Assembly (NCBI RefSeq): GCF_036240795.1
Contig: NZ_CP108454.1
Coordinates: 6,570,001-6,634,000, forward strand
DNA from: Streptomyces sp. NBC_01268
Lineage (GTDB): Bacteria > Actinomycetota > Actinomycetes > Streptomycetales > Streptomycetaceae
Direction of reading: 5' to 3'
Length of the DNA: 64,000 bases
Shown: in pieces, positions 53,111-64,000 of the stretch
How the letters are laid out: each line of letters starts with the position of its first letter
Numbering within the stretch: position 1 is the first letter of the stretch
Translations under genes and position numbers: made by a program
Notes under the pieces: generated by a model
Database searches by the model: none
What the model saw: the letters and a program-made list of their open reading frames with translations, nothing else
What the model was told of the DNA's origin: nothing

Positions 53111-53761
53111 GTGTTCGTCAAGGTGTGCGGGCTCGCCACGACCGCCGACATCGATGTGGCCGCCGAGGCCGGGGCCGAGGCCATCGGCCTGGTGATCAGC
53201 GGGACCAGCGTCCGCGGCCTCGACTGGGACCGGGCGGTGCGCCTCGCCGCCCACGTGCCCTCCCACGTGCGGTCCGTCCTCGTCGTCAACGACACGGCCG
53301 CCGGCGACGCCGCCCGCGCGGCGGACGAGCTCGGCGTCGACGCCCTCCAGCTGCACGGCCCCGCTTATGCCCGGGCCGACTTCGAGGAGGCGGCCCGCAC
53401 CTTCCCGCGCCTGTGGCGCGCCACCTCCCTGAACGAGAAGCCCGACACCCGGGTCGGCGCCTACGGCGAGGAGGTCCTGCTCCTCGACTCGCCCCGCGCC
53501 GGATCCGGCGCCCGCTGGGACCTCTCCCTGCTCGACGCCGCCCGCCCCGAGGGCGCCTGGCTGCTCGCCGGTGGGCTCGCCCCCGACAACGTCGCCGAGG
53601 CGATCCGGCAGGCCCGGCCCTGGGGCGTCGACGTCTCCAGCGGCGTCGAGTCCGCCCCCGGCGTCAAGGACCACGCACGCGTCCACGCCTTCGTCACGGC
53701 CGCCAAAGCCGCCGCCAAAGCCGCCGCCGAGGCCGCGGCGAAGACCGGGGACGCTCCCTAA
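53111..53761 (+). CDS. Phosphoribosylanthranilate isomerase-like protein (TrpF)
   Basis: (beta/alpha)8 isomerase of 216 aa, converting phosphoribosylanthranilate to CdRP in tryptophan synthesis if it is a true TrpF. Visible: KVCGL at the N-terminus (Cys is the general base), IGLVISGTSVRGL, DALQLHG, ARWDLSLL (Asp as general acid), WLLAGGLAPDNVAEAI and DVSSGVES with the phosphate-binding turn. GTG 53111 follows AGGAGCAGCA. Most Streptomyces use the bifunctional PriA and have no trpF, so a separate gene is noteworthy; it is not next to other trp genes. An Ala/Lys-rich tail of about 25 residues at the C-terminus is extra. Confidence 0.8.
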   Translation: MFVKVCGLATTADIDVAAEAGAEAIGLVISGTSVRGLDWDRAVRLAAHVPSHVRSVLVVNDTAAGDAARAADELGVDALQLHGPAYARADFEEAARTFPRLWRATSLNEKPDTRVGAYGEEVLLLDSPRAGSGARWDLSLLDAARPEGAWLLAGGLAPDNVAEAIRQARPWGVDVSSGVESAPGVKDHARVHAFVTAAKAAAKAAAEAAAKTGDAP

Positions 53762-56797: not shown

Positions 56798-57592
56798 TCA
56801 GGGCGTGGCGGACGCGCCCCGGTGCGAGCGGAACAGGCGGCCCTGCCGCTCGTCCCCCCGCTCGCCCGCCGCGCGCAGCGCGGACCACAGCACGGACTGG
56901 TTGGCGGTGACGACCGGAACGTCCAGGACCTTCTCCAACAGCGGCACCAGCGCCTGGCTGCGGAAGCCGCTGCCGGGCACGAGGACCCCGTCCGCCCGGC
57001 CGTCCGCGGCCTCGAAGGCGGCGGTGGTCTGGCGCAGCACCTCGTCCGGGTCGATCGCCCAGCGGGCGCCCGCGTCGAAGGCGTTGTACGGAGGGACGTG
57101 CGCCCACTCCGGACCGAGCTCGAAGGGGTGGACGAACACCTCCTCGACTCCGTGCGCCGTCAGGTACGCCTCCGCCGCGCGGTGCGTCGGCGGTGTGAAC
57201 CACGGCGGCATCACCACCAGCGGGCGCCGCACGCCCACGGCGGCCAGCGCCTCGGTCAGGGCCTGCCCCGAGGTGAAGACCGGCGTGCCGTGGGAGTGCG
57301 CGAGGGCGGCCTCGGCGAACTCGGCGTCGAAGCCCTCGCCGCCGAAGAAGCTGGGCGAGCCGAAGCAGAACGCGATCCGGTCGACGCCGAGCCGGCCGAG
57401 GAAGTCCAGCGAACGGACCACGTCGGGCGCGTCGGCGAGCAGCCGCGCCGTGCTGCCGGTGTACTCGGCGTCGTCGAGCCGCGGGCACTCGAAGCGCGCC
57501 GTGTGGACGCTGGTGCCGTCCGGGGCCGCCCGCCAGATCTCGGTCTCGGGCACGGGGTCGTTGTGGATGACGAGGATGCCCAGGCGGGTCAT
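56798..57592 (-). CDS. Asp/Glu racemase-superfamily protein (maleate isomerase/arylmalonate decarboxylase-like)
   Basis: Protein of 264 aa in the maleate isomerase/AMDase branch of the Asp/Glu racemase superfamily. One cysteine is at the first catalytic position (IAFCFGSPSFFGG, about residue 76). The second catalytic Cys is missing: LVPGSGFRSQALVPLLEKVL has Ser/Gly there. VVTANQSVLWSALRAAG is the family's C-terminal signature. Maleate isomerases need both Cys, so this is a non-canonical member, perhaps a decarboxylase or a lyase-like enzyme. ATG 57592 overlaps the MFS stop (ATGA). It is the last gene of the eight-gene leftward operon. Confidence 0.75.
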   Translation of the reverse strand: MTRLGILVIHNDPVPETEIWRAAPDGTSVHTARFECPRLDDAEYTGSTARLLADAPDVVRSLDFLGRLGVDRIAFCFGSPSFFGGEGFDAEFAEAALAHSHGTPVFTSGQALTEALAAVGVRRPLVVMPPWFTPPTHRAAEAYLTAHGVEEVFVHPFELGPEWAHVPPYNAFDAGARWAIDPDEVLRQTTAAFEAADGRADGVLVPGSGFRSQALVPLLEKVLDVPVVTANQSVLWSALRAAGERGDERQGRLFRSHRGASATP

Positions 57593-58977
57593 GCCGCCGT
57601 CTCCTTCCCGCGCAGGCCCTGGAAGCCCCGCCAGCTCCACAGCGCGCCCACCGCGGCGATCGCCGCGGCCAGCAGGAACCCGGGCAGGAAGCGGGAGTCC
57701 GCCGGCCCGTCGCCGAGCAGGATGACCAGGACGGCCACGCCGAGCGCCCCGCCCGCGTACTGACTGGTCGTCATGAGGGCGCCCGCGACACCCTGGTTGG
57801 CGTCGTCGACGTCCCGCGTGCCGCCGACGAACATCGACGTGTAGATCATGCCGTGGCCCAGGCCCGAGACGATCAGGCCCGGCAGCATGCCGGTCCAGTA
57901 CGAGGTCGTGTGGACGCCGAGGGCGAGCAGCACCAGACCGGCCGCGCCGACCAGGAAGGCGACCGGGGTGCTGACCCCGACCCCCACCTTCGGGATGATC
58001 CGGCCGGCGATCATGTTGCCGAGCGTGATGCAGACGGCCAGCGGCAGGAAGGCGATGCCGGCGGCCAGCGGGGCCATCTCCCGGTTCTCCTGGAGGAAGA
58101 GCGTCACCATGTAGAACTCGACGCCGGCGACGCTCGCCATGTACAGCGCCGTCGCGCCGCAGCCGACGAGCAGGGTGCGGGTGCCGCGCAGGGACCGCTC
58201 GATCAGCGGCTCCGAGCTGCTGCGCTCCCGCACCACGAAGACGGCCAGGCCGACCACCGCGGCGGCGAAGGAGACCAGCGTCGACGGCGCGCCCCAGCCG
58301 TCGCCCGCGGCGAAGGTCAGACCGAACACCGAGGCCAGCACGGTCGCCGTGCACACCACGGCGCTGAGGACGTTCAGCGGCTTCGCCGTGCGCACGTCCG
58401 CCTGGTGGAGGAAGCGCGGTGCGGCGAGCACGCAGACCAGCGCGAAGGGCAGGTTGACGAAGAAGGTCCACCGCCAGGACACGGTGGTGAGCAGACCGCC
58501 CACGACGACCCCGGCGGCGAGTCCGCTGGCGCCGACGGTGCCCCACACGGCCATCGCGCGGGTCCGCTCGCGGCCCGCCTCGAAGCTGGTGTTGAGCAGG
58601 GCGAGGATCGACGGCTGCAGCGCGGCGGCGGCGATGCCCTGCGCGGCCCGGGCGAGCAGCAGCACGGCCGCGCCGGCCGCGAGGCCGCCGGCGAGCGAGG
58701 CCAGGCCGAAGAGGGCGAGCGCGCCGATGAACAGGGTGCGCGGGCCGATCCGGTCGGCGATCCGGCCGCCGAGGATCAGGAAGCCCGCGAAGAACACGCT
58801 GTAGGCACTGACGACCCACTGCATGGCGGAGCCGGACAGGTCCAGGTCGGCGCTCATGCTGGGCATGGCGACGAAGATGACGGAGAAGTCCAGCGCGATC
58901 AGGAACTGTGCGGCGGAGATGGTCAGCAGGCTGCCCGTGACGCTCCGCTTGTGGGTGGAGGTGAGTGTGGCTGTCAT
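57589..58977 (-). CDS. MFS drug exporter (DHA2-type, 14 TMS)
   Basis: Major-facilitator exporter of 462 aa with about 14 helices. LLTISAAQFLIALDFSVIFV starts helix 1; the A motif is GGRIADRIGPRTLFIGAL; the C motif region is AVWGTVGASGLAAGVVVGG, typical of drug-proton antiporters. ATG 58977 (MTATLTSTHKRSVTGS) is the start. It is coupled by ATGA overlap to the racemase-like gene and follows the HAD phosphatase by 35 bp, so it belongs to the operon with psuG-like and deaminase genes. It likely exports a pathway product; no substrate can be named. Confidence 0.88.
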   Translation of the reverse strand: MTATLTSTHKRSVTGSLLTISAAQFLIALDFSVIFVAMPSMSADLDLSGSAMQWVVSAYSVFFAGFLILGGRIADRIGPRTLFIGALALFGLASLAGGLAAGAAVLLLARAAQGIAAAALQPSILALLNTSFEAGRERTRAMAVWGTVGASGLAAGVVVGGLLTTVSWRWTFFVNLPFALVCVLAAPRFLHQADVRTAKPLNVLSAVVCTATVLASVFGLTFAAGDGWGAPSTLVSFAAAVVGLAVFVVRERSSSEPLIERSLRGTRTLLVGCGATALYMASVAGVEFYMVTLFLQENREMAPLAAGIAFLPLAVCITLGNMIAGRIIPKVGVGVSTPVAFLVGAAGLVLLALGVHTTSYWTGMLPGLIVSGLGHGMIYTSMFVGGTRDVDDANQGVAGALMTTSQYAGGALGVAVLVILLGDGPADSRFLPGFLLAAAIAAVGALWSWRGFQGLRGKETAA

Positions 58978-59012
58978 GTCCCCTGGTCTCTACGGTTCGC
59001 TGGGTCGGGCTT

Positions 59013-59693
59013 CTAGTGCGGTGCGGACAGCGGCGCTGCGGTCAGCGTGCCGAGCACGTCGGCGAGGGCGTCGACGGTGCGGACGACGGTGTGCGCCCCC
59101 GCGTCGGCCAGGGCCTCCTCGGTGGCGACGCCGTAGGTGACGCCGACCGCGCGCATGCCCGCCGAACGGGCCATCCGCATGTCGTCGACGGCGTCCCCGA
59201 CCACCACGCACGCCTCCGGGCCGCGGCCGAGCCGCCGGGCGGCCAGCAGCGCCAGGTCCGGGTGCGGCTTGCCGCGCTCGGCCATGCCGTGGCAGACCAC
59301 CGCGTGGAACAGGTCGTACAGCCCGGCGGGCTTGAGGAGTTCCTCGGCGCTCGGCCTGATCTTGCTGGTCACGATGGCGATCTGGTGGCCCTCCTCGCGC
59401 AGCCCTTCGAGGAGGCCGCGGACGCCGGGGAAGACCAGCTCGCGGGCGCGCGGCACGGCCTGCTCGCGGAAGAGGTGCCGGAAGAGGGCGACCGAGGCGT
59501 GCACCTCGGCGTGGTCCTCGGGAAGGTCCGTCAGCTCCGCGAAGGAGGCGGCCAGTGGCCGGCCGATCGTCGCCCGCACCCGCGCGTCGGAGGCGCTGCG
59601 GCCCCGCTCGGCGAGGGTGGCGTGGAGGGTGTCGGCGATGGCGGACGGCGTGTCGAGCAGGGTGCCGTCCAGGTCGAAGAGGACCGCGCTCAC
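59013..59693 (-). CDS. HAD-family phosphatase (IndB-like)
   Basis: HAD-superfamily hydrolase of 226 aa. Motif I DLDGTLLDTPSAI gives the nucleophile Asp, motif II is IVTSKIRPSAEELL, motif III includes RGKPHPDL, and motif IV VVVGDAVDDM. It is a typical phosphoglycolate-phosphatase-like enzyme. GTG 59693 overlaps the stop of the PsuG-like gene (GTGA), so the two are coupled. The PsuG plus HAD pair is the signature of the IndA/IndB couple in indigoidine and the related minimycin and showdomycin pathways, in which the phosphatase removes the 5-prime phosphate of the C-ribosylated product. Substrate identity is an inference from context. Confidence 0.87.
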   Translation of the reverse strand: MSAVLFDLDGTLLDTPSAIADTLHATLAERGRSASDARVRATIGRPLAASFAELTDLPEDHAEVHASVALFRHLFREQAVPRARELVFPGVRGLLEGLREEGHQIAIVTSKIRPSAEELLKPAGLYDLFHAVVCHGMAERGKPHPDLALLAARRLGRGPEACVVVGDAVDDMRMARSAGMRAVGVTYGVATEEALADAGAHTVVRTVDALADVLGTLTAAPLSAPH

Positions 59694-60643
59694 CGCTGCT
59701 CCTCCTTGGCGAGGTGGACCGCGAACTGGGCCGCGAGGGCGGTGGTCGACTTCAGTACCGACACGTTGGCGTCGGCGGTGCGGCCCTCGGTGGCTTCGGC
59801 GATGGCCTTGAGCAGGTACGGGGTGACCGCCGGGCCCGTGATCCCTTCGCGGGCCGCGCGCTCGGTCGCCTCGGCGAGCGCGTCGGCGATCTCCTGCGAG
59901 GGGATGCCGTCGTCCTCGGCGATGGGGTGGGTGACGAGGACGCTGGTGTCGTTGCCGGAGCGCCAGTGGGCCCAGGTGGCCCGGGCGACGTCGGCGAGGT
60001 CGTCGAGGCGGTGCGGGTTGCGCACGCCGCTGGAGACCGAGAGGTAGGCGGGGAAGTCGTCGCAGCGGTAGCCGATCACGGGGATGCCCGCGGTCTCCAG
60101 CCACTCCAGGGTCCACTGGGGGTGCAGCATCGACTTCGCCCCGGCGCACACCACCGCGGTCCGCGCGCGGGTGAACTGGACGAGGTCGGTGGAGATGTCG
60201 AAGCTGGCGGGGGCGTCGCGGTGGACGCCGCCGATGCCGGCGACGGCGAAGACGCGGATCCCGGCCAGCTCGGCGGCGAGCAGCGACGAGGAGACGGTGG
60301 TGCCGCCGGGGCCGCCCGCCGCGAGGGTGACGCCGATGTCACGGGTGGAGACCTTCGGCACCTTCCCGGCGGCGCAGAACTCCTGGAGCAGCGCGTCGTC
60401 CAGGCCGACCCGCAGCTTGCCGCCGAGCAGCGCGATCCGCGCCGGTACGGCGCCCTGGGCACGGATCCCGGCGTCCATCTCCCGGGCCAGCTCCAGGTTG
60501 TAGGGGTGGGGGAAGCCGGAGAGTACGGAGGATTCCAGGGCCACGACGGGTCTGCCGTGGGCCAGGGCTTCTGACACCTCCTCGCCGAGTGCGAGGAGAG
60601 TCGGGTCGAATGCCGGCGCACGAAGGTGCGAGGAGGTGGTCAT
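59690..60643 (-). CDS. Pseudouridine-5-phosphate glycosidase-like C-glycosidase (PsuG/IndA family)
   Basis: PsuG-family protein of 317 aa. E. coli PsuG breaks pseudouridine 5-phosphate into uracil and ribose 5-phosphate; relatives form C-glycosidic bonds in C-nucleoside antibiotics. Catalytic residues are conserved: Glu37 (VALESSVLSG), Lys97 (KVSTRDIG), Asp153 (FDISTDL) and Lys170 (CAGAKSM), matching Glu31, Lys93, Asp149 and Lys166 of E. coli PsuG as I recall it. The SHGMPFP loop of E. coli, carrying His43, is replaced by SGFPHP, so substrate specificity may differ. ATG 60643. There is no PsuK kinase; a HAD phosphatase follows instead, and the operon also contains a deaminase and exporters. 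Confidence 0.85.
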   Translation of the reverse strand: MTTSSHLRAPAFDPTLLALGEEVSEALAHGRPVVALESSVLSGFPHPYNLELAREMDAGIRAQGAVPARIALLGGKLRVGLDDALLQEFCAAGKVPKVSTRDIGVTLAAGGPGGTTVSSSLLAAELAGIRVFAVAGIGGVHRDAPASFDISTDLVQFTRARTAVVCAGAKSMLHPQWTLEWLETAGIPVIGYRCDDFPAYLSVSSGVRNPHRLDDLADVARATWAHWRSGNDTSVLVTHPIAEDDGIPSQEIADALAEATERAAREGITGPAVTPYLLKAIAEATEGRTADANVSVLKSTTALAAQFAVHLAKEEQR

Positions 60644-60731
60644 GAAGGGTCCCCTTTGTGGTGCGTAGTGCTGTGCGGTGCTGTGCTGTGCCTGTCTTTC
60701 CGGTCTTCGGGTTCCGTGGAGGGCGGACGCG

Positions 60732-61430
60732 TTACGCGCAGCCCGTGCCGTCGGCGCGACAGACCACGCCGTCGAGCGCGACCGACTCGGCCAGCCTCGC
60801 CCGCTCGTCCAGGACGGCCTTGCGGATCTGCGCGGTGCTGGGCACGCCCTCCAGACGGGTGTCGCCGACGAGGATCGTCGGGACGGCCTGCACGCGGTTC
60901 GCCTCGGCGTCCCGCAGGGCGTCCTGATGACGCTCGTAGTACGTGCCGTCCTCCAGGGCCTTGCGGTACGCGGGGCCGTCGAGGCCGATCTCCTCGGCGA
61001 GGCCGACGAGGACGTCGAGCCGGCCGAGGTCCAGGCTCTCCTGGAAGAAGGCCCGGAACATGCGCTGGTTGTACGCGTCGCCCCGACCGTGCTCGACGGC
61101 GAACTGCCAGCCCTCGAAGGCCAGCCGGGTGTACGGCTGCGGCGAGACGGTGGGCAGGGTGATGTCCACGCCCAGGCGGCGGGCCATCGGGTAGACGGCG
61201 CGCTTCCAGATCTCGGGGAGGTACGGGTCCTCCGGGCGGAGGGTCGGCTTGGGCTCGGCGCGGAGCTCGAAGGGCTTCCACTCGATCTCGACGTCGAGGC
61301 CCTCGACGGCCTCCTCCAGCGGGCCCTCGGCCAGCATGCAGAAGGGGCACACGTAGTCGGACCAGACCTGGATCCGTACCTTCTCGGTGCTCGGGGCGGC
61401 CTCGGGCGTCCCGTCGGTCTCGGTGCTCAC
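60732..61430 (-). CDS. DsbA-family oxidoreductase (FrnE-like)
   Basis: Thioredoxin-fold protein of the DsbA/FrnE type, 232 aa, cytoplasmic (no signal peptide). The active-site motif is CPFC (Cys28, Cys31; SDYVCPFCMLAEGPLEEAV), and the C-terminal cis-Pro region is AVPTILVGDTRLEGVPSTAQIRKA. The helical insertion in the middle is typical of FrnE and 2-hydroxychromene-isomerase-like proteins. GTG 61430 overlaps the deaminase stop (GTGA), so the two are coupled. In biosynthetic clusters such proteins are frequent but their role is rarely known; a redox or isomerase step on the pathway intermediate is possible. Confidence 0.85.
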   Translation of the reverse strand: MSTETDGTPEAAPSTEKVRIQVWSDYVCPFCMLAEGPLEEAVEGLDVEIEWKPFELRAEPKPTLRPEDPYLPEIWKRAVYPMARRLGVDITLPTVSPQPYTRLAFEGWQFAVEHGRGDAYNQRMFRAFFQESLDLGRLDVLVGLAEEIGLDGPAYRKALEDGTYYERHQDALRDAEANRVQAVPTILVGDTRLEGVPSTAQIRKAVLDERARLAESVALDGVVCRADGTGCA

Positions 61431-61915
61431 GAGTGGATGCTCCCTCGGTTGGCCAGGTACTCCTGGAACGGCACCTCGTGTCCCTCGACCGGAAGGTGGG
61501 TGGTCCTGATGCCCCACGCGGTCGGGTCGGTGCGGTAGATGCCGTACGAGCCGGAGTAGTCGAAGCCGTGCCGGGCGGCGGTCCCGCGGTCGGCGGCGAA
61601 GACGATGTGCTCGACGCCGAAGTACAGGGCGACCTGGTAGCACAGGGCGCACGGCTCTCCGGAGGCGATCAGGGTCGCCCCGTGCACGGCGAACGAGCCG
61701 TGCTGCTTGGTGGCGTTGCGCAGGGCGACCACCTCCGCGTGGGCGGAGGCGTCGCGCTCCTCGCGGACGCGGTTGAAGCCGGTTCCCAGGACCCGGCCGT
61801 CGTGGCGGACCACGATGCCCGAGAAGGGGATGCCGCCGGAGGCGACGTGCTCGCGGCTGATCCGGACTGCTTCTTCCACCTGCTTGGTCAGGTGGTCCTT
61901 GGCTGCGGTCGTCAT
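61427..61915 (-). CDS. Cytidine/guanine deaminase-like nucleoside deaminase
   Basis: Zinc-dependent deaminase of 162 aa in the guanine/tRNA-adenosine deaminase family. Metal and catalytic residues: His59 and Glu61 in ASAHAEVVALRNA, Cys89 and Cys92 in SGEPCALCYQVAL. The C-terminal half (FDYSGSYGIYRTDPTAWGIR) is extended compared with the shortest family members. It would remove an amino group from a base or nucleoside, or from a related nitrogen heterocycle. ATG 61915 (MTTAAKDHLTKQ) is chosen. It lies 8 bp after the SMR gene and overlaps the DsbA-like gene. Its presence beside a PsuG-like C-glycosidase suggests base tailoring. Confidence 0.85.
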   Translation of the reverse strand: MTTAAKDHLTKQVEEAVRISREHVASGGIPFSGIVVRHDGRVLGTGFNRVREERDASAHAEVVALRNATKQHGSFAVHGATLIASGEPCALCYQVALYFGVEHIVFAADRGTAARHGFDYSGSYGIYRTDPTAWGIRTTHLPVEGHEVPFQEYLANRGSIHS

Positions 61916-61923
61916 GAGGGGGC

Positions 61924-62241
61924 TCAGACGGAGGTCACGCGCAGGATGATGGCGCCGCCGATGATCGACGCGAAGGAGAGCAGCCGGGCGAGGGTGATCT
62001 TCTCCTTGAAGATGATCGCGCCGAAGACGACGGTGCCGACGCCGCCGATGCCGGTCCAGATGGTGTAGCCGACCGACACGTCCAGCTCCAGCAGGGCGTG
62101 GGACAGCGTGTAGATGCCGCCGGCCGCGGCCAGCAGGGTCAGCACGCTGGGCCACAGCTTGGTGAAGCCCTGTGTGGCGTTGGTGCCGAGCGCGAAGAGG
62201 ATCTCGAAGACGATGGCGATACCGAGGTAGACCCAGGTCAT
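61924..62241 (-). CDS. SMR-family multidrug exporter subunit A
   Basis: Small multidrug resistance protein of 105 aa with four helices: WVYLGIAIVFEILFALGTNA (with the conserved Glu in FEI), LWPSVLTLLAAAGGIYTLSH, VGYTIWTGIGGVGTVVFGAI and ARLLSFASIIGGAIILRV. It pairs with the following SMR protein upstream, a layout seen in heterodimeric SMR exporters such as EbrAB and YkkCD. ATG 62241. It is the second gene of the leftward operon, 46 bp after the first SMR gene. Confidence 0.88.
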   Translation of the reverse strand: MTWVYLGIAIVFEILFALGTNATQGFTKLWPSVLTLLAAAGGIYTLSHALLELDVSVGYTIWTGIGGVGTVVFGAIIFKEKITLARLLSFASIIGGAIILRVTSV

Positions 62242-62287
62242 GGGAACGGCTCTCTCTACTGGAAGTGAGGTGGGGAGGGGGGGAGGG

Positions 62288-62701
62288 TCAGACCGTGGCC
62301 TTGGCGCGCTCTTCGGCGACGCGCTCCTCCGCGACCTTCTTGTTCGCGGCGATCTTGTCCGTGATGCGCAGGGTGGTGCCGCCGCCGATGATCAGGACGA
62401 AGGCGAGCACCTTCCAGATCGTCATCGGCTCGTCGTAGATCAGGGTGCCGAAGATGACGGTGCCGACGCCGCCGATGCCGGCCCAGACGGTGTAGCCGAC
62501 GCCGACGTCGACGTACTTGAGGGCCTGGGAGAGCGTGTAGATGCCGCACGAGGCCGCGGCGGCCGTGAGGAGCGAGGGGCCGAGGCGGGTGAAGGCGTGG
62601 GTGGCCTCGGTGGAGAGGGCGAAGGTGATCTCGAACAGCGACGAGAACAGCAGCCAGGCCCAGCCGATGTTCTGGTTCTTCTGTGTCTGCTCGGCGGACA
62701 C
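62288..62701 (-). CDS. SMR-family multidrug exporter subunit B
   Basis: Small multidrug resistance protein of 137 aa, first gene of the leftward operon. Four helices: AWLLFSSLFEITFALSTEAT (with the conserved Glu), LTAAAASCGIYTLSQALKYV, VGYTVWAGIGGVGTVIFGTL and KVLAFVLIIGGGTTLRI. A charged C-terminal tail of about 25 residues (AANKKVAEERVAEERAK) distinguishes it from the partner. GTG 62701 has GGAGGCATA directly upstream. Paired SMR genes usually form a heterodimer that exports cationic or hydrophobic compounds. The divergent MarR gene probably controls it. Confidence 0.88.
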   Translation of the reverse strand: MSAEQTQKNQNIGWAWLLFSSLFEITFALSTEATHAFTRLGPSLLTAAAASCGIYTLSQALKYVDVGVGYTVWAGIGGVGTVIFGTLIYDEPMTIWKVLAFVLIIGGGTTLRITDKIAANKKVAEERVAEERAKATV

Positions 62702-62830
62702 TATGCCTCCATAGTTGTTTGTGCGTGCAAGTTCCTTAGGATCATGAAGCTCCTAAGTACGGCACGGAGTTAGCTAGGATCTTGCATGGTCATATAACCT
62801 GTTGTCAAACCCCCTTTTGAGGAGAGGTAC
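62702..62830. promoter_or_regulatory. Divergent promoter with MarR-type operator
   Basis: CTTAGGA (62735-62741) and TCCTAAG (62751-62757) form a perfect 7-bp inverted repeat with a 9-nt spacer, a MarR-type layout, 34 bp before the first SMR start. For the MarR gene, TTAGCT (62770-62775) and TATAAC (62793-62798) are 17 bp apart and form a plausible vegetative promoter. CTTGCAYG elements occur here twice (62781 and, inverted, near 62724) and again at 63478 (TTGCATGCAC) before the adenylation gene. Confidence 0.62.
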
Positions 62831-63286
62831 ATGAACAACGCCAGCACCACGTCTCCCGCACCCACCTCGGACCAGGCCGTCTGGGACCGTGTGCTCACCC
62901 TCCACGCGCGGGTCGAGCGGGAGCTCGCCAACGCGCTCCAGCGCCGGCACGGCATCGGCCTCTCGGAGTACCGGGCGCTCGAGAACCTGTCCTCCTCACC
63001 CACCAGCGAGCTGCGCATGCAGGAGCTCGCCGACAAGATCGGGCTCGGGCAGTCCTCGGTCACCCGCCTCGTCGAGCGGCTCAAAGGTGCTGGTTACGCG
63101 TTCAAGGACCTCTGTCCCTCGGACAAGCGCGGGGTCTACGCGGTGATCACGGACGAGGGTCGCAGCCGTTACGTGGCCGCCCGTGCGACCTACGCGGAAG
63201 TGCTCTCCGGCGCGCTCAACTCGCAGGGCGCCGACCCCGCGCTCGCGGCCACCGTGGCCTCGCTGCGCAGCGCCCGCCCGGCGTAA
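62831..63286 (+). CDS. MarR-family transcriptional regulator
   Basis: MarR-type regulator of 151 aa. Winged HTH: LRMQELADKIGLGQSSVTRLV then ERLKGAGYAFKDLCPSDKRG and VYAVITDEGRSRYVAARATY; the N- and C-terminal helices form the dimer. ATG 62831 (MNNASTTSPAP) follows GGAGAGGTAC. It is divergent from the SMR-led operon and upstream of the adenylation-domain gene, so it is the likely cluster regulator, repressing the exporters until ligand binds. Cys in CPSDKRG could be a redox or electrophile sensor; this is speculation. Confidence 0.9.
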   Translation: MNNASTTSPAPTSDQAVWDRVLTLHARVERELANALQRRHGIGLSEYRALENLSSSPTSELRMQELADKIGLGQSSVTRLVERLKGAGYAFKDLCPSDKRGVYAVITDEGRSRYVAARATYAEVLSGALNSQGADPALAATVASLRSARPA

Positions 63287-63387
63287 CCCCCTCTTCCAGG
63301 GCTCACCCCGAGCGCACCCCCGTCCCCCCGGGCTCGCCTCCGTCCCCTCCCCGCATCCCTCCCCCGACCGCTGGCCGTCGCCTCCCA

Positions 63388-63427
63388 CCGTCTCCATCCG
63401 CCGGAGACGGAAGGGCGCGGCCTTTTT
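63388..63427 (+). terminator. Terminator after marR with T-tract
   Basis: CCGTCTCC (63388-63395) and GGAGACGG (63403-63410) pair around a 7-nt loop; a run of five T (63423-63427) follows after 12 nt. It lies 100 bp downstream of the MarR stop. Confidence 0.65.
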
Positions 63428-63663
63428 GCGTTCACACGTCCGCAGCACCGACTTAATGATCTTGACTTAGAGTATTAGTTGCATGCACAAGCGGTGACCT
63501 AGGTCACAACGCGACCGCTCGGTATATGCTTGACCGTGCATGGAAACTCGGTAGTGTCTGATCCCGGCGCAGATCGGTCCGAACGGAAGGCGTTCACTCG
63601 AACGAAGACCGGACGGACCGGACGGTGCTTGGCCCAGTCTTTTCCAGACCATGCGGGGGAAAC
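63428..63663. promoter_or_regulatory. Promoter region of adenylation gene with GTGACCT/AGGTCAC palindrome
   Basis: Unusually AT-rich stretch before the adenylation gene (TTAATGATCTTGACTTAGAG at 63453). It contains a perfect 14-bp palindrome GTGACCTAGGTCAC (63494-63507), TTGCATGCAC (63479) and TATATGCT (63523), a possible -10. The leader is about 130 nt. The palindrome suits a dimeric regulator, possibly Crp-like (GTG-N8-CAC), unproven. Confidence 0.5.
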
Positions 63664-64000
63664 GTGCCATCGCCCAGCCTTGCCCAGAACATCGCCGCGC
63701 ACGCCGAGCGGCAGCCTTCCTCGACGGCGCTCGTGCTCAACGACGAGCGGGTGACCTACGGCGAACTCGCCGCCCTGGTGGCGCTCCTGTCGGAGCGGCT
63801 CGCGGCGGCGGACCTCCCGGCCGACAGGCCGGTGTGCGTACCGGCCCGCAAGGACCCGGCGACCGTCGCCCTGATGCTCGCCGCCTTCGGCCGGCCCCTG
63901 GTCGTCCTCGCGCCCTCCGCCGAACTCGGCGGGGACGCCCTCGACCGGATCTGCCGTCAGGCGCGGGTCTCGGCGCGCCTGACGGCCGCCGCCGACGGCA
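63664..64000 (+). CDS. Adenylation-domain protein / NRPS (5-prime part only)
   Basis: Start of an ANL-superfamily adenylation domain, 112 codons before the window ends. GTG 63664 (PSLAQNIAAHAERQPSSTAL, then VLNDERVTYGELAALVALLSERLAA) follows GGGGGAAAC, and the frame is open to the end. The opening is the A1-type N-terminus of NRPS adenylation domains or acid ligases; core motifs A3 to A10 lie outside. As the first gene to the right of the MarR gene and the PsuG/HAD operon, it might be the NRPS of an indigoidine/minimycin/showdomycin-type cluster. Its substrate and domain order cannot be read here. Confidence 0.78.
   Translation, partial: MPSPSLAQNIAAHAERQPSSTALVLNDERVTYGELAALVALLSERLAAADLPADRPVCVPARKDPATVALMLAAFGRPLVVLAPSAELGGDALDRICRQARVSARLTAAADG

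Follow-up and report, generated by a model that had tools for sequence, protein, structure and literature searches.

A probable showdomycin gene cluster in a Streptomyces genome, and related loci that carry its predicted aminopyrrole core without PsuG

We have analysed the right-hand end of a 64,000-nucleotide stretch of Streptomyces sp. NBC_01268 (the window; G000:C1:6570001-6634000 of an 8.5-Mb Streptomyces genome in a single contig). Coordinates follow the numbering of the window, and the reading was extended past its edge on a segment, L003, that covers window positions 55001-75000 (window = L003 + 55000). This segment holds a cluster of 16 genes which, by our own boundaries, occupies 12,051 bp (56798-68848), the last 4.85 kb of it beyond the window edge. 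Judged by its gene set, the cluster very probably directs the biosynthesis of showdomycin (sdm); it adds another showdomycin-type locus, here on a single-contig genome, and a new compound is unlikely. The comparative pattern matters more than the cluster itself: the predicted aminopyrrole core recurs in loci that lack PsuG and whose product is undescribed. Domains were assigned with Pfam and NCBIfam profiles. The presence of genes in related loci was called by tblastn, because a simple gene caller missed some of them (in L003, for example, the genes for the carrier protein, the EctC-like cyclase and the HAD protein).

The available part of a review (PMC8724604) gives sdm as 16 genes in 12.2 kb, found with AlnA and AlnB as queries. 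The pathway outlined there comprises a glutamine cyclase (SdmE), a non-ribosomal peptide synthetase (NRPS; SdmC), a carrier (SdmD), oxidation, hydrolysis, the C-glycosynthase SdmA and the phosphatase SdmB. Each of these enzymatic activities has a candidate gene in our cluster. A dissociated adenylation (A) domain (485 aa) and a peptidyl carrier protein (PCP; 89 aa) are encoded by separate open reading frames (ORFs). A YeiN/AlnA-like PsuG and a HAD protein are the putative equivalents of SdmA and SdmB, while an acyl-CoA dehydrogenase-like flavoenzyme (ACAD) and a transglutaminase-fold protein (TG) would account for oxidation and hydrolysis. An EctC-like cyclase is the presumed counterpart of SdmE, on the supposition that SdmE is itself EctC-like. 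The numbers of genes and base pairs are close to those published, and a trpF gene, which the accessible text of a 2026 paper (PMC13055916) reports close to the S. showdoensis showdomycin cluster, is found 3 kb to the left of ours; the related locus L053 of genome G310 also has a trpF match. Compared by description only, our cluster and that of S. showdoensis ATCC 15227 (BGC0001778) revealed no difference: both combine dissociated A and PCP, a glutamine cyclase, a C-glycosynthase and a phosphatase with a nearby trpF, and both count 16 genes over about 12 kb.

Several points weigh against this assignment. The identity with sdm is drawn from the gene set and not from an alignment with S. showdoensis, and the eleven sdm genes besides SdmA-SdmE go unnamed in the available part of the review (PMC8724604). 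The A-domain specificity and the product of the cluster are predictions. Finally, Asn-38, a substrate-carboxylate contact of ectoine synthase, aligns with a Cys in the EctC-like protein.

The arrangement of the genes is summarized in Table 1. An initial annotation, made from the letters of the window, had described eight leftward genes, a MarR regulator and a divergent adenylation gene running off the edge, and all of these are present as ORFs with the corresponding Pfam or NCBIfam domains. Beyond the edge, where that annotation had proposed to look, the adenylation gene proves to encode an A domain only, followed by PCP, the EctC-like protein, ACAD, TG, a second AMDase-like protein (rac2) and a DUF6253 protein. 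The gene is thus where it was placed, but it is a single stand-alone A domain and not an indigoidine-type NRPS. The described coupling of PsuG to the HAD gene by a GTGA overlap is real, with four shared bases at the GTG start of the HAD gene; MFS/rac1 and deaminase/DsbA overlap by four bases as well. To the right the cluster adjoins a phytase-like esterase gene on the opposite strand.

Table 1. Genes of the cluster and the nearby trpF, in window coordinates
Feature	Position	Strand	Domain or remark
rac1: AMDase/maleate-isomerase-fold (Asp-Glu-racemase-like) protein, PsuG companion	56798-57592	-	
MFS exporter	57589-58977	-	PF07690; kept beside PsuG-HAD in S-type loci
HAD phosphatase, SdmB-like	59013-59693	-	PF13419; GTG start overlaps PsuG stop
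PsuG/YeiN-like C-glycosynthase, SdmA-like	59690-60643	-	PF04227, 323 bits
DsbA-like protein, CPFC motif	60732-61430	-	PF01323; conserved in 16 loci
Nucleoside-deaminase-family protein, intact zinc motif HAE...PCxxC	61427-61915	-	PF00383; conserved in 16 loci
SMR exporter 1	61924-62241	-	PF00893
SMR exporter 2	62288-62701	-	PF00893
MarR regulator, divergent from SMR genes	62831-63286	+	PF12802
Stand-alone A gene, SdmC-like, ~485 aa	63664-65121 (crosses window edge at 64000)	+	PF00501
PCP, 89 aa, DSL Ser	65118-65387	+	PF00550
EctC-like cyclase (cupin)	65442-65816	+	NCBIfam ectoine synthase
ACAD, prolyl-PCP-dehydrogenase-like flavoenzyme	65903-67054	+	PDB and NCBIfam matches
TG, transglutaminase-fold protein	67073-67783	+	
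rac2: second AMDase/EutA-like protein	67780-68607	+	
DUF6253 small protein	68612-68848	+	
trpF (phosphoribosylanthranilate isomerase domain), 3 kb left of cluster	53117-53698	+	PF00697, sole match in genome

The position of PsuG among its relatives bears on two other readings of the cluster. A tree was built from 50 PsuG loci, whose neighbours were scored for PfkB and for HAD within 100 nt. Twenty loci form a kinase side (support 1.0), with PfkB adjoining in every one; among them is the second PsuG copy of this genome (G000:C1:2145332). The side that contains the cluster's PsuG has 30 loci (support 0.878), none with an adjoining PfkB and 21 with HAD within 100 nt; here the seven sdm-type PsuG proteins make up a single clade (support 0.994). 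By its tree position the cluster's PsuG is of neither the catabolic nor the indigoidine type, a placement that does not address the direction of catalysis. That the cluster might be a catabolic pseudouridine operon with unrelated neighbours has in its favour that PsuG is common in the genus (E <= 1e-40 in 253 of 295 genomes) and that, among the matches listed, the best mostly fall at about 1e-50 to 1e-63, the level of similarity of the kinase side. Since PfkB is absent here, adjoins the other PsuG of the genome, and the tree separates the two, we consider this reading practically negligible.

Slightly less remote, although still very improbable, is an indigoidine- or minimycin-type cluster, in which PsuG and HAD would act on the product of an A-Ox-T-TE NRPS. 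The PsuG-HAD overlap without a kinase does resemble the IndA/IndB pairing, and minimycin shares with our cluster a YeiN-type C-glycosynthase, a HAD phosphatase and a glutamine-derived base. However, minimycin, through MinA, and indigoidine both use a multidomain NRPS, and none is present in the cluster, where A, PCP, ACAD and the hydrolase are separate. The PsuG genes found near an NRPS-sized ORF or an A-domain tblastn match (L141, identical to L090, with a 1382-aa ORF; L142, identical to L091; and L143, identical to L092) belong to a different clade. Moreover, the HAD protein has no second Pfam domain, whereas MinC of the minimycin pathway is described, in the accessible part of the source, as HAD plus DUF4243. 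Of the initial reading as a C-nucleoside/indigoidine-type cluster, the first half is therefore retained, on account of the HAD-coupled, kinase-free PsuG and its side of the tree, and the second is not; of the three pathways then named, showdomycin is the one that matches the gene set. The best PDB sequence match of PsuG is AlnA of alnumycin biosynthesis (246.6 bits), followed by the pseudouridine-5'-phosphate glycosidase 4gij (234.2 bits). The alnumycin acceptor is a polyketide, unlike the predicted base of our cluster.

Other PsuG loci deserve mention. Five (L136-L140) have PsuG-HAD without the aminopyrrole core, four of them with an MFS gene, and are possibly another C-nucleoside family. By eye, asparagine-synthase-like and cupin-like ORFs are present in L136 and L137, and a small ORF resembling a tautomerase gene in L136 and L138. 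On plasmid pSA3239 of Streptomyces lavendulae (L130), PsuG is near an NRPS gene with an adenylation domain, together with genes for a tautomerase, uracil phosphoribosyltransferase, an alkene reductase, phosphoribosyl pyrophosphate synthetase and trpF. This gene set is minimycin-like, and trpF is again close to a C-glycosynthase-type gene. The trpF to the left of our cluster is probably not a pathway gene.

The core enzymes suggest how the base might be made. The EctC-like protein scores 144.6 bits against the NCBIfam ectoine-synthase model (cut-off 128), and a second, better-scoring EctC is encoded 1.35 Mb from the cluster. In an alignment it keeps the Glu, Tyr and His ligands of iron, which are described for ectoine synthase together with the Asn-38 contact to the substrate carboxylate in the accessible part of PMC6344544. 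True EctC forms 5-amino-3,4-dihydro-2H-pyrrole-2-carboxylate (ADPC), that is, cyclised glutamine, as a side reaction, according to the parts available of PMC6344544 and PMC5924519. Because Asn-38 is replaced by Cys, the substrate of the EctC-like protein may differ at the carboxylate, for instance as a thioester. The nearest PDB match of ACAD is the prolyl-ACP dehydrogenase 4irn (251.5 bits), and its nearest NCBIfam models are RedW and PigA, with scores below their cut-offs. An origin of the pyrrole as pyrrole-2-carboxylate from proline, by an A, PCP and ACAD trio, was considered and set aside in view of the EctC-like cyclase in the operon and the gene set equal to that of sdm.

In the pathway that we propose, gene content, order, domains, key residues and phylogeny come from our analysis and the order of the steps from the literature. 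The EctC-like enzyme would cyclise L-glutamine to a 2-amino-pyrroline carboxylate, either free, as the review proposes in its available part (PMC8724604), or bound to the PCP, which would be loaded by the stand-alone A domain. ACAD could then oxidise the ring to give an aminopyrrole thioester, and TG could release 2-amino-1H-pyrrole-5-carboxylate. The SdmA substrate was reportedly given this same name by Ren et al. in 2021. PsuG (SdmA) would couple the aminopyrrole carboxylate to ribose 5-phosphate through a C-C bond, and the HAD protein (SdmB) would remove the phosphate. The product would be exported by the MFS and perhaps the SMR proteins and would turn into the maleimide showdomycin. MarR presumably serves for control, and the DsbA-like CPFC protein may give protection from the thiol-reactive maleimide or act in redox of the base.

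The initial annotation had taken the deaminase, the DsbA-like protein and the racemase-like protein as signs of a possible new C-nucleoside. Such a product, related to showdomycin but distinct from it, would arise if the base were altered, before or after ribosylation, by the deaminase together with rac1 and rac2. Loci with PsuG and the aminopyrrole core but without deaminase, DsbA, SMR, MarR and rac2 (the S type, below) indicate that not every locus of this kind depends on these genes. Against a new product stand the gene number and length, which match those of sdm (16 genes, 12.2 kb, in the available part of PMC8724604), and the trpF landmark: sdm itself most likely has these genes, which fit the published count. 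A new C-nucleoside is accordingly possible yet unlikely, and we retain showdomycin as the predicted product.

The available part of the review (PMC8724604) gives the last steps to showdomycin (decarboxylation, deamination and redox) as non-enzymatic. The conservation of rac1 alongside PsuG, together with the presence of a deaminase in a Burkholderia relative, gives some reason to suspect that enzymes take part in decarboxylation and deamination, and rac1 and the deaminase are candidates for the steps from pyrrole to maleimide. The absence of a deaminase match from the S-type Streptomyces loci weighs against enzymatic deamination. The AMDase/maleate isomerase fold was confirmed for rac1 and rac2. 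In both, however, the two catalytic Cys positions of the family are occupied by F and G, while both Cys are kept in the relatives P0208 and P0209. An invariant Cys precedes the first catalytic position of rac1 by one residue in all six sequences, and rac2 of G000 contains no Cys at all. A role as true racemases or maleate isomerases was considered; the residues at both positions exclude two-Cys chemistry, and such a role would require another mechanism. We know of no activity for any rac1, rac2 or deaminase-type protein of these loci. If the candidates hold, enzyme-assisted decarboxylation and deamination would replace the non-enzymatic steps, and this is testable in vitro with two small proteins.

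Related loci were collected from 392 genomes of the genus with TG as a probe, which biases the locus counts toward TG-bearing loci. At E <= 5.3e-41 this gave 36 loci in 33 genomes, of which 35 were read (the second copy in G129 was left out). By tblastn they fall into four architectures: fused, as in our cluster (2 loci, G000 and G310); S, with the ribosylation half only (3); M, without PsuG but with rac2 (14); and X, with neither (16). A separate count of conservation over 39 loci required more than 45% identity for rac1 and rac2. The closest relative, L053 of G310, has all 15 tested genes in the same order at 91-100% protein identity, with a DUF6253 match as well, in a separate species-level genome. 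S-type loci, such as that of Streptomyces globisporus JCM 4378 (L006/L054), share A, PCP, EctC, ACAD, TG, PsuG, HAD, MFS and rac1 with our cluster at 45-75% identity; MarR, the SMR genes, deaminase, DsbA and rac2 were not found in them. The nine genes of the S type help to read the antiSMASH similarities to showdomycin given in five papers (52, 47, 29, 23 and 17%). All of these equal k/17 (k = 9, 8, 5, 4 and 3), and nine genes would give 52%, which suggests that the showdomycin reference entry has 17 genes.

M-type loci are represented by a plasmid of Streptomyces globosus LZH-48 (NZ_CP030864.1; L077), which carries DsbA, deaminase, two SMR genes, MarR, A, PCP, EctC, ACAD, TG, rac2 and DUF6253. 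No orthologue of PsuG, HAD, MFS or rac1 was found in the stretch, so that ribosylation is not expected. In the stretches read, genes for DsbA, deaminase, SMR-like proteins and MarR occur in 13 of the 14 M loci; the exception is L040, whose contig is short and where MarR alone of this set is present. DUF6253 is likewise found in 13 of 14, with L055 lacking it. The SMR proteins of M loci are mostly 33-44% identical to those of the cluster, whereas SMR1 of L055 is 90% identical and the other cluster genes of that locus 59-79%; SMR1 may have been exchanged recently. In eight of ten M genomes examined PsuG occurs only at the kinase-side level, and the other two (G181, G266) have another PsuG elsewhere. 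Our literature search found no paper describing these PsuG-less loci. Outside the survey of 35, S. sp. PTY087I2 (L007) is S-type and the S. globosus plasmid M-type. In G295, an S-type genome, an M locus is also present, on a different contig. A fused cluster in G142 has decayed: rac1 lies in two frames, and one ORF is by eye an insertion-sequence-type transposase. The 19.9 kb examined there contained no match to PCP, EctC or ACAD, and TG gave none in the genome by a search that had no positive control.

A core tree of four core proteins was calculated for 33 of 38 loci (L046, L049, L050, L051 and L052 were dropped for missing one of the four). A single clade of 20 loci (support 1.0) unites the fused and M loci with the S loci L054, L056 and L007, which are nested among M; the core of L070, also S-type, groups with three X loci (support 0.975). 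This placement of the S loci, L070 included, indicates that the joining or splitting of ribosylation genes and core has happened repeatedly, whether by gain or by loss. Each half of the cluster carries its own AMDase-like protein, rac1 with the ribosylation genes and rac2 with the PsuG-less half. As a tentative hypothesis, and one that we consider more doubtful than not, the showdomycin cluster could be a composite of two pathways on one aminopyrrole core. The M half alone would make an undescribed, sugar-free aminopyrrole or maleimide antibiotic, and the PsuG-HAD-MFS-rac1 half would channel the same core into the C-nucleoside instead. Rac1 would act on the ribosylated aminopyrrole carboxylate and rac2 on the free one, each as a dedicated decarboxylase or in some other handling of the base, and together with the deaminase they would perform steps called non-enzymatic. 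Strains such as G000 would then make both products.

The core also occurs outside Streptomyces. A plasmid of the betaproteobacterium Burkholderia stagnalis YJ-2 (NZ_CP156687.1; L129:4788-13341) has a compact operon in one direction, A-ACP-EctC-ACAD-TG-PsuG-HAD-MFS-rac1-deaminase. Most of its genes are 37-62% identical to those of the cluster (rac1 37%, EctC 62%), PCP is 34% identical and the deaminase 39% over half its length; it differs in having no match to DsbA, SMR, MarR or a separate rac2. A phylum-wide search with TG over 396 genomes gave 5 matches at 38-44% identity besides the genome itself. On a plasmid of the alphaproteobacterium Aliiroseovarius crassostreae (NZ_CP080787.1; L079), TG, EctC, two ketosynthases, ACAD, A, ACP and a TrpD-like gene lie in one run.

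Further genes recur in the related Streptomyces loci. Several M-type loci lie beside gamma-butyrolactone genes: among L040, L055, L062-L067 and L077, an AfsA-family gene recurs in 8 (domain checked in L062), the annotation of L077 includes ScbA and ScbR, and L062 has a phosphopantetheinyl transferase. This suggests that M-type production is signal-controlled. A DDE_5 transposase-like family is present in 11 loci (L007, L054, L056, L040, L050 and L062-L067), mostly near the A gene (domain checked in L062), and this recurrent protein may be domesticated. Our literature search found no description of Trp-like genes within aminopyrrole-core loci. Seven of the 16 X-type loci (L042, L043, L044, L047, L048, L069 and L072) have TrpD-, TrpF- and TrpA-like genes among A-PCP-EctC-ACAD-TG; the annotated one, L069 (identical to L080), is on a Streptomyces xanthii plasmid (NZ_CP061282.1) and has a TrpC-like gene too. 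By analogy this looks like the ring-building logic of tryptophan acting on the aminopyrrole, with a fused pyrrolo-pyrrole as the expected product.

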